From a virus: a stretch of 34,631 nucleotides of DNA. How positions within the stretch are numbered: the stretch's first letter is position 1; the number at the start of each line of letters is the position of its first letter. The translations under genes were made by a program, and so were the position numbers. Under the pieces are notes generated by a model. That model did no database searches and had not been told where the DNA came from. It was given only the letters and a program-made list of their open reading frames with translations. This document shows positions 5,647-10,759 of this stretch, one piece after another. Location: positions 1-34,631 of the IMG/VR virus record IMGVR_UViG_3300020451_000231; one strand, 5' to 3'.

Positions 5647-6677
5647 TAGATTGCTGATGCCTCCATGTACAGAGATCTCATAACACTTTTCACATTATCT
5701 TTACTTACTTGTAGATCTATATCATCTATGTAGGTATCGAGTAATGTTAAAGTATCTTCAGTTTCTAATAACGAATCACTTTCACCAAGTACACTAAGAT
5801 CTTCTACAATCTTAAGGTCTGCAATGTTCATGTCTTGTAGACGTTTAACTGCATAGTCAAACTTGGCATAGTCTCCTTTTTCTTCTACGATGAGTTTGAC
5901 GAATGTTCCTTCGACATCTTTCTCGCTTGGGAGACTAACTCCGTTATTATAATACAATTTATGAAAAACGTCAAAGGGATTCCTATAATGAGTAGTTTTA
6001 AGAGTAAGTGTATCAAAAACATGGAAGCCTCTTTTGCATCCGAAGTCATTCCAGTAAAGTTGGTAGGGATTTCCAAGATAATAAATGTTGTCTTTATGTG
6101 ATTTAGAATGATAGTGTCCTGTAAACACTTTCTTAAATTTTTTGAAGACCGAATGATCCATGCCACGTTCCATCATGTGACCAGGATGTGCTTCAAAACC
6201 ATTGAGTTCTAAGTGTCCCATACACACTTTGCTTTTGCTTTCCTTGATTGCTCTGAATGATTGTTCAAGGTTGTCATCACATATCCAAGGAAGACATAGA
6301 ATATCAAGACCATCATATGTTATGTTGGTTGGTTCTGTGATTACATGAATGTTATGGTACTCACCTAGAAGTTCATCTGGTGCGTTGACTCGTAATGTAT
6401 TCTTATAGTATATGTCATGGTTACCTACAAGCATATCCATTTTGACACCCATTTCTCTTAGAGGGTCAAACCACATCTCTTTAGATTCATCTAATGAATT
6501 AAAATTTATAGATTTACGTTTATCAAACGTATCACCTAAACAAAAGACATGTTCTATTTTATGTGCTTTTATAAAAGGTATGACAACTTTACTATAAAAC
6601 TTTTTATAGTGATTAATAAAATGCTTGTTATCATTACGAACACCAAAGTGTTGATCAGTTATCAGCAATAATTTCAT
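5646..6677 (-). CDS. 47: gp47 recombination nuclease subunit (Mre11/SbcD-like phosphoesterase)
   Basis: 343 residues, near the length of T4 gp47 (339). All calcineurin-like phosphoesterase motifs are readable in order: ITDQHFG (metal ligands D8, H10), CLGDTFD, VGNHD, MGHLE and FTGHYHS. It is the catalytic partner of gp46 in end resection. Its ATG overlaps the last codon of gene 55 (ATGA), so nuclease and late sigma factor are co-translated from the promoter at 7174-7202. No insertion or frameshift is seen. Confidence 0.97.
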   Translation of the reverse strand: MKLLLITDQHFGVRNDNKHFINHYKKFYSKVVIPFIKAHKIEHVFCLGDTFDKRKSINFNSLDESKEMWFDPLREMGVKMDMLVGNHDIYYKNTLRVNAPDELLGEYHNIHVITEPTNITYDGLDILCLPWICDDNLEQSFRAIKESKSKVCMGHLELNGFEAHPGHMMERGMDHSVFKKFKKVFTGHYHSKSHKDNIYYLGNPYQLYWNDFGCKRGFHVFDTLTLKTTHYRNPFDVFHKLYYNNGVSLPSEKDVEGTFVKLIVEEKGDYAKFDYAVKRLQDMNIADLKIVEDLSVLGESDSLLETEDTLTLLDTYIDDIDLQVSKDNVKSVMRSLYMEASAI

Positions 6678-9131: not shown

Positions 9132-9705
9132 AAAACCATGCTACAATTGATTTCCTGACTCCAGACTTTACAGGTCTAACTCTGTGCCAAACATCTGATT
9201 GAAAGAAGATTGCTGAACCTCTCTTCAACTTAAATGTTTCGTATCTACAATCAGTCTCTGGTTTATATAGCTCCAAATCAAACTCCCCTCCTTTGTACTC
9301 GTCTGGTTCATTCATGAAAAGAGTCATACTTATCTTTCTTACTACACCTTCTCTGGATCCACTATCTGCTACCCAATATACAGGTTTGGGATGTTGATCT
9401 ACGTGCCAATCATACTTACCACCTTGGGAATATATACCATACTGTATTGGTTCAACACCTGTTATATTTAAGTTCCATAAGTTCTGTTCGTTCATTGTCT
9501 TTGCTATATCAATAAACATTTGACAGAATCTAGCGTCTCTAACCCATGCTTGTTGAGATATTCTATCTATTGAACTCCTTGCTAGGTTTGAATTATGTGT
9601 AAGACTATCTTTAAATACTAAATTCTCATTATCAAGTGTGCGTTGAATCCTAGTCATTGCACTGTCATTTAATTCAATGACTCTATAAGAACAACCGTAC
9701 TTCAT
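9112..9705 (-). CDS. 2OG-Fe(II) oxygenase (PKHD-type hydroxylase)
   Basis: 197 residues. Double-stranded beta-helix dioxygenase signs: iron ligands H101 and D103 in YDWHVD, distal H174 in VWHRV, and R184 in the VRKSIVAWF strand, which would bind 2-oxoglutarate. The closing SIVAWFYGPP and the GGEFDLEL strand are typical of PKHD/PiuC-type hydroxylases. T4-like cyanophages often carry several such enzymes, with unknown substrates. The ATG overlaps the uvsY stop (ATGA), and the gene runs 20 bases into uvsW, so it is embedded in the recombination operon. DNA or protein hydroxylation are both possible. It is unlike the second oxygenase at 11315-11905. Confidence 0.9.
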   Translation of the reverse strand: MKYGCSYRVIELNDSAMTRIQRTLDNENLVFKDSLTHNSNLARSSIDRISQQAWVRDARFCQMFIDIAKTMNEQNLWNLNITGVEPIQYGIYSQGGKYDWHVDQHPKPVYWVADSGSREGVVRKISMTLFMNEPDEYKGGEFDLELYKPETDCRYETFKLKRGSAIFFQSDVWHRVRPVKSGVRKSIVAWFYGPPYK

Positions 9706-10130
9706 ACACCGTTCTGGAATTTAGTCCAGTCTATAGCATTTTTAATTTGAAAATTTCTATTGTTTATCTGTCTCAATACACCGTCTAGGTAATTAAGACA
9801 TTGATCTACATACTCAATTTTATATTGTAATTTTCTTACGTCCTCATCTCCTTCAATAAACATGTTGACTTCCTCTTTAGTAGTCAACTTGTAATCGAAT
9901 GGCATTTCTTTATACACACTTGATGGTGCTTTTCCTTTATAGTATATCCATTTCTCTCTGATAAGTCTCTTCATGTCAATCTCACGTTCTTTCTTCATCA
10001 GTCCAAACGTGGTGTATAGTTCCATATATCGCATATGAAGTTGTGGAATTTTTGTGGATTCTTCGCAGTAAAGATCGTTATCAATTACTGAATCCTTTTT
10101 CCACATCTCCTGTATCTGTTCTAGATTCAT
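9702..10130 (-). CDS. uvsY: UvsY recombination mediator
   Basis: 142 residues from the ATG at 10130 (T4 UvsY is 137). An upstream TTG two codons earlier also reads in frame, but ATG is the likelier start. The pattern of T4 UvsY is kept: an N-terminal IQEMWKKDSVID, a basic central helix with REKWIYYKGKAP, and the C-terminal RNFQIKNAIDWTKFQNG, matching the T4 ending in both spacing and character. UvsY loads the UvsX recombinase onto gp32-coated single strands. It is mostly helical with no catalytic motif. It heads the unit that continues as oxygenase and uvsW. Confidence 0.92.
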   Translation of the reverse strand: MNLEQIQEMWKKDSVIDNDLYCEESTKIPQLHMRYMELYTTFGLMKKEREIDMKRLIREKWIYYKGKAPSSVYKEMPFDYKLTTKEEVNMFIEGDEDVRKLQYKIEYVDQCLNYLDGVLRQINNRNFQIKNAIDWTKFQNGV

Positions 10131-10617
10131 TATCAATCCAAGGGTCTGGTATTACACTCCTTGATCCTTCGTTTCCTTGAAGAAATCTTGGAGACTGCTC
10201 TGGCAGTTCACTGTTTTCTCTTTCTTGGGTCTGATCCCTTTCATCTTTTCGTAGTCGTTGTGCATCGCTCCTAGTAACCATGCCTGTGCTAGTTGCTTCG
10301 GACCTTCGTTCAACAATTGGATTTGAAATTTCGAGAGACCAGCCTTCATCTCCAAATACTCCTTTCTCCACGATGTTTGGTCTTTTGATTGGTTCATTCC
10401 TGTCCCACTCTTTTACTAATTGTTCAGCTTGTGCGTCAACTGATCGCATTGTGTTTTCTATTTTAGCATAGATCCACTTTTTTTTCAACCACTCTATCAA
10501 ACCAAGTGCTAAATGCCTGACGAAAGGGTTCTTGAATTTCTTCTTTACCCATCGTTCTGCCTTGCTATACCAAGGGTCTACACCTTTACCAAAGGTTTTT
10601 TCAAAGGAGAATAGCAC
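10081..10617 (-). CDS. Hypothetical protein, long frame overlapping the 81-residue ORF and uvsY
   Basis: 178 residues from a GTG at 10617. The first 70 residues look like an ordinary protein: a basic amphipathic segment WVKKKFKNPFVRHLALG, a helix IEWLKKKW, then VDAQAEQLVKEWDRNEP. The second half is highly polar and fully overlaps another frame (10152-10397), and the last 50 bases overlap uvsY. Codons in this frame end mostly in A or T through the overlap, like neighbouring genes, which argues that it is genuinely read. The start overlaps the end of the upstream 52-residue ORF by 17 bases. Function unknown. If only the first half is real, a frameshift or a missed stop would be needed to explain it. 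Confidence 0.5.
   Translation of the reverse strand: MLFSFEKTFGKGVDPWYSKAERWVKKKFKNPFVRHLALGLIEWLKKKWIYAKIENTMRSVDAQAEQLVKEWDRNEPIKRPNIVEKGVFGDEGWSLEISNPIVERRSEATSTGMVTRSDAQRLRKDERDQTQERENSELPEQSPRFLQGNEGSRSVIPDPWIDNESRTDTGDVEKGFSN
10152..10397 (-). CDS. Hypothetical 81-residue protein nested in another frame
   Basis: Begins at an ATG preceded by GGGACAGG and ends 21 bases before the uvsY start. The sequence looks like a compact folded protein: WRKEYLEMKAGLSKFQIQLL, then NEGPKQLAQAWLLGAMHNDY and a basic KKEK tail. Amphipathic helices, balanced composition and correct operon spacing make it more convincing as a protein than the second half of the larger frame around it. Its third codon positions are richer in G/C than those of its neighbours, as expected if another frame is also under selection. 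No function recognised. Confidence 0.6.
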   Translation of the reverse strand: MNQSKDQTSWRKEYLEMKAGLSKFQIQLLNEGPKQLAQAWLLGAMHNDYEKMKGIRPKKEKTVNCQSSLQDFFKETKDQGV

Positions 10618-10759
10618 CTATTATAAACCCCTTAGCGAAAGCAAGACAATGTATTTGATAGTCTGACAACTTATATTTATCTTGAAATTTCTTTATTAGT
10701 TTTTTATCCCACTCGACAAACTTGTCGAACCATTTTTGTGTTTTGTCTGATAGTGCCAT
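10601..10759 (-). CDS. Small 52-residue protein with hydrophobic C-terminus
   Basis: ATG at 10759, two bases after the stop of the tail-tube-family gene, and TGA at 10601-10603. The sequence reads MALSDKTQKWFDKF, a Lys-rich helix, then a C-terminal AFAKGFIIGAILL that could be a short membrane anchor or amphipathic helix. Tight packing between two genes, with the next GTG inside its end, supports it. No function recognised. Confidence 0.55.
   Translation of the reverse strand: MALSDKTQKWFDKFVEWDKKLIKKFQDKYKLSDYQIHCLAFAKGFIIGAILL

Follow-up and report, generated by a model that had tools for sequence, protein, structure and literature searches.

Genes that overlap on the same strand with a +1 offset, so that one stretch of DNA yields two proteins, are an established arrangement in viruses, with a median overlap of 14 nt (IQR 8-26) across all viruses and short overlaps in large double-stranded DNA genomes (PMC8903798). 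The locus analyzed here agrees with these genes in strand, phase and the encoding of two proteins, but its overlap measures 137-317 nt, much longer than in that survey, and becomes a full nesting in the clade of our window. Both partners belong to cataloged families. The outer protein is a member of phrog_6464 (T4-GC 410) and an orthologue of PSSM4_112, where the inner overlap is unannotated, and the inner protein, a full-length match to phrog_16908, belongs to the phrog_16908/phrog_869 family (T4-GC 284), whose overlapping copies are usually unannotated as well. No report of the overlap was found in the literature searched, a body of work without most subscription journals; the locus adds a new, largely unannotated case to a known overlap type.

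Judged from the window and its relatives, it is very probable that two separate protein-coding genes share this DNA, with both constrained, the inner one started independently and the overlap maintained. In double-stranded DNA phages of 180 kb, it is unusual to find overlaps longer than 100 nt with both frames under selection. Moreover, natural controls of the kind available here, namely each gene alone, both genes overlapping and lineages with one frame broken, are seldom found together, and they allow the constraints that dual coding places on two proteins to be tested directly.

The window, that is, the whole 34,631-nucleotide stretch of DNA analyzed, covers part of the genome of a T4-like cyanophage of the Kyanoviridae that is close to the Prochlorococcus phages P-SSM4 and P-SSM3. 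Its minus strand carries, in order, the major capsid protein, a 2OG-Fe(II) oxygenase, gp3, a 52-aa open reading frame (ORF), the outer frame, uvsY, another 2OG-Fe(II) oxygenase and uvsW (Table 1). The initial annotation had described an 81-codon frame lying wholly inside a 178-codon frame on this strand, and its coordinates, strand and lengths were all exact; the roughly 250 bases over which it reported both frames to be open correspond to 246 shared nucleotides, with the inner frame +1 relative to the outer. It was likewise right that the outer frame keeps A/T-ending codons (GC3 of 0.29 within the overlap, as against 0.56 for the inner frame), a difference that is probably why gene finders pick the outer gene, and that the inner gene is well spaced from uvsY, its stop codon lying 21 nt ahead of the uvsY ATG. 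The outer frame in turn runs 50 nt into uvsY when counted from this ATG, or 56 nt if the TTG at 10136 is the start. The 52-aa ORF (10601-10759, minus strand), located between gp3 and the outer gene, has a hydrophobic C-terminus and reaches 17 nt into the outer gene. P-SSM4 conserves the C-terminal part of this ORF and has no annotation for it.

Table 1. Features of the overlapping locus and its surroundings, in window coordinates
Feature	Position	Strand	Description and basis
uvsY	9702..10130	-	Pfam UvsY 1.7e-46; PHROG 231; adjoining single-coding baseline gene
Outer gene	10081..10617	-	178 aa, GTG start; phrog_6464; T4-GC 410 in P-SSM4 (= PSSM4_112)
Inner gene	10152..10397	-	81 aa, ATG start; fully nested, +1 relative to outer gene; phrog_16908/869
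Outer N-terminal helical domain	10399..10617	-	About residues 1-73, single-coding; AlphaFold2; also found without the inner gene
Candidate inner ribosome-binding sequence GAGTGGGA	10404..10411	-	Within the outer codons for E-W-D
IPDPW motif, outer tail	10138..10152	-	Directly past the inner stop codon; sequence and relatives
Second overlap, outer-frame end over the first uvsY codons	10081..10130	-	Coordinates

The outer protein matched the phrog_6464 profile over most of its length (residues 1-136, E 2.9e-56) and is 88.8% identical to its annotated P-SSM4 orthologue. Outer genes without an inner gene occur in P-RSM6, S-SZBM1, S-WAM1, P-TIM40 and many viral contigs, and these solo genes end in a different tail, ETPSEVxGLxxMEI. 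Among overlapping outer genes this tail motif is absent except in the form of EEGPSSV or EETPSSV (S-RIM and S-WAM2 types). An outer-domain model that does detect its target in a phage-like contig (G004) found the domain in none of 300 genomes of the Prochlorococcus family. AlphaFold2 placed helices at residues 16-27 and 31-73, with a pLDDT of up to about 80; confidence was low from residue 79 on, falling below a pLDDT of 50 over the overlap, and this overlapping part of the tail is, according to the model, probably disordered.

The inner protein, too, matched its family profile over practically the whole chain (phrog_16908, residues 2-81, E 1.5e-24); a stand-alone member from P-TIM68 reached E 3.1e-39 against the same profile. 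The family is annotated alone, as T4-GC 284, in S-SSM5, P-SSM2, P-SSM7, S-SM2 and S-ShM2. In S-SSM5, S-IOM18 and S-ShM2 the slot between gp3 and uvsY holds the inner gene with no outer gene, and S-SM1 carries a shorter relative there. Other solo copies lie near psbA, psbD, cobS, nrdC or replication genes (P-SSM2, S-SM2, S-B05, P-SSM7, P-TIM68), P-RSM6 carries an inner gene alone and away from the gp3-uvsY slot, and P-TIM68 has two tandem inner-family genes of different subfamilies (1498-1909 of its locus record). Viral contigs commonly carry a further subfamily (NWEKEYL...HEGMxYGxMY). Inner relatives are encoded by 96 of the 300 Prochlorococcus-family genomes; picocyanobacterial copies are often tandem or interrupted. 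The structure predicted for the inner protein consists of four helices (mean pLDDT 73). Neither protein had a significant match in Pfam or NCBIfam or a solved relative in a PDB sequence search, and the fold search came back empty for the inner protein, whose good matches in BFVD were cyanophage proteins that are likewise uncharacterised, among them several known inner-family members.

Wherever both genes occurred together, the inner frame was in the +1 phase relative to the outer (170 of 170 loci checked). The commonest form is a staggered overlap of 137-190 nt in which the outer gene ends within the inner one, and full nesting is found in the P-SSM4-like and S-RIM-like clades. The pair also exists in other places: P-HM2 carries it after nrdB, S-SSM7 between psbA/tRNAs and nrdC. 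Annotation pipelines retain one frame, so that many cyanophages seem to lack T4-GC 284, a conserved gene, although they carry it. The overlap is unannotated in P-SSM4, P-SSM3, P-RSM4, P-HM2 and S-SSM7, and ORF_140 of S-TIM4 is an inner gene annotated with a late start; in overlapping lineages the inner gene is usually missing from annotations or truncated because the outer gene is called instead. Among 84 unique overlapping loci, 71 had the outer phase open across 41 codons of the inner core, where about 1% would be expected, and in the remaining 13 the outer gene's own stop fell near the end of this stretch. Both frames are hence open in diverged homologues beyond chance. Premature stops, which the initial annotation had named as a result that would count against it, appeared only as isolated lesions: a TGG-to-TGA change (W to stop) in the inner gene of S-RIM8, and one A missing from an A-run in the outer N-domain of P-RSM3, where nearby DNA is identical to P-SSM4 and the deletion may be a sequencing error. 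Such broken copies suggest that neither gene is strictly essential in every lineage.

Comparing substitution rates in each frame across related phages, as had been proposed, pointed to purifying selection on both. We classed differences by their effect on each frame in disjoint pairs, taking silent sites of uvsY as the baseline. By simple pair counting, which carries some non-independence and recombination, and going from the closest pairs to the most distant, sites silent in the outer but changing the inner frame diverged at 0.28, 0.20, 0.15 and 0.10 times the silent rate of uvsY, and sites silent in the inner but changing the outer frame at 0.73 [0.46-1.10], 0.45, 0.28 and 0.20. The intervals excluded 1 in every class but the outer-only-changing sites of the closest pairs, so that purifying selection is seen on the inner frame throughout (0.10-0.28) and on the outer frame outside the closest pairs (0.20-0.45). 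Complementarily, inner genes of 80-90% identity diverged less at inner-silent sites when overlapping (0.251 [0.219-0.284]) than when standing alone (0.452 [0.409-0.497]), and the same held at 70-80% and 60-70% inner identity. At the level of sequence comparison, both proteins are thus statistically shown to be under purifying selection, the inner one more strongly, which indicates that the overlap is maintained and is not a chance open frame.

The alternative that survives this analysis best, albeit as an improbable one, holds that the inner gene alone counts within the overlap: what is needed of the outer gene would be its N-terminal domain, with the tail a passive run-on that stays open by chance and owing to the inner codons. 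The predicted disorder of the tail would fit this reading, as would an outer end point that varies by lineage, from roughly 118 to 178 aa, and an OLGenie-style dNN/dSN of about 1 for the outer gene in distant pairs. We attribute this weaker signal to strong constraint on inner second codon positions, although caution remains. However, a passive tail does not account for outer-only-changing sites that lie 2- to 5-fold below uvsY silent sites outside the closest pairs and are also suppressed relative to stand-alone inner genes. Nor would the outer frame be expected to stay open: with the inner protein fixed and synonymous codons drawn at random, it did so in 0 of 3000 trials. Finally, the IPDPW motif beyond the inner stop codon recurs across lineages, being found in P-SSM4, P-SSM3, S-RIM8, S-RIM50 and S-H35, with PDPW in S-WAM2 and P-TIM40.

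With two constrained genes as the preferred reading, the outer gene would specify an N-terminal helical domain and a tail predicted to be disordered, and the codons of this tail would double, one base out of phase, as codons of the inner gene. The inner product would be a small protein made of helices, one that elsewhere is encoded alone, in cyanophages as well as in picocyanobacterial genomes. Ribosomes would most likely start it at its own ATG, by way of a Shine-Dalgarno sequence embedded in the conserved Trp-Glu/Asp codons of the outer gene. Among 44 representatives, the inner ATG was usually preceded by a TGGGAGGAA-like sequence, with a mean anti-Shine-Dalgarno duplex energy of -7.3 kcal/mol (median -8.8), compared to a mean of -2.1 at random control positions. 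In most relatives these bases are the Trp-Glu-Glu codons of the outer gene; 31 of 59 overlapping genes use GAG as the codon directly after the conserved Trp, and 15 of 22 solo outer genes use GAT. The window site, GAGTGGGA, is weaker (-3.6 kcal/mol) than the TGGGAGGA of most relatives, and this value, shared with P-SSM4, is within the range of chance sites. We would further guess that the pair of small proteins is co-expressed from the gp3-uvsY region, and that the two are kept together because shared DNA moves both as a unit.

The initial annotation had offered, as an alternative, a frameshift joining the first part of the outer frame to the inner one. A programmed +1 frameshift that attaches the inner frame to the outer N-terminal domain would suit the +1 offset and an inner frame that, in the window, stays open for 5 codons ahead of its ATG, but we consider it very unlikely. 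The upstream inner-frame stop lies 4-37 codons from the ATG in relatives and in many of them only 4-6, leaving almost no room for slippage, and no recurring slippery site was seen between this stop and the ATG, so that the anatomy of a programmed frameshift, a conserved slippery site without an independent second-frame start, was not found. The inner gene instead has its own conserved ATG with, in most relatives, a strong Shine-Dalgarno sequence, and its homologues include stand-alone genes with their own start. A frameshift fusion was rejected on this start and stop anatomy, and independent internal initiation is the simplest reading and the likely mechanism.

The claim that the nested frames exceed chance expectation held in one direction. 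It was weak for the length of the inner ORF, as 2.1% of random synonymous recodings of the outer protein yielded a +1 ORF of 81 aa or more and nested +1 ORFs of 72-122 aa are present in six other window genes; with P about 0.02 and these six further cases, ORF length was discarded as evidence. It stood in reverse, in the 3000 trials with the inner protein fixed. Both frames also retrieve many relatives by tblastn, but their identity there was equally rejected as proof, since a chance 93-aa nested +1 ORF inside gp47 (5885-6166, minus strand) gave similar matches, 136 phage records in all. This frame finds relatives because a conserved host frame carries a shadow, and the case for both genes therefore rests on other evidence. 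That only the outer gene is real, with the inner frame a shadow ORF whose apparent conservation reflects that of the outer gene, would be in keeping with the gp47 matches and with the modest significance of the inner ORF length, but it is the least credible reading of all, because inner homologues are annotated alone in other neighborhoods and in host genomes with no outer frame, and outer-silent sites in the overlap evolve at only 0.10-0.28 times the uvsY silent rate.

As to how the two constrained genes came to overlap, the initial annotation had suggested overprinting. Two genes with selection on both frames bear this out in part; strict de novo overprinting, in which one gene would be absent outside the overlap, is not demonstrated, given that each family is also found by itself. 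One way in which the overlap may have arisen is that the outer gene was extended across the inner start. A tree of the outer N-domain with few resolved branches shows 6 switches between overlapping and solo forms, of which at least 4 are forced, and this suggests recombination between the outer N-domain and the tail. The tree does not fix the direction of origin, that is, which frame came first.

We also entertain, as a tentative and rather doubtful idea, that the inner family, common to picocyanobacteria and their phages, has been repeatedly overprinted in the same +1 phase; if true, the family would recurrently act as a platform on which genes are born or extended through overlap. The idea concerns a second frame of about 95 codons (MLRKILSLV...EIPDPW), which has another N-terminus, lacks the outer N-domain and runs over inner genes in the same +1 phase. 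At the amino-acid level, inner-silent changes were not suppressed in this frame, and the likeness of its tail to that of the outer gene may be a shadow of the inner protein. The frame was nevertheless open in 15 unique diverged copies from viral contigs, where synonymous shuffling predicted 0, and we keep it as a lead.
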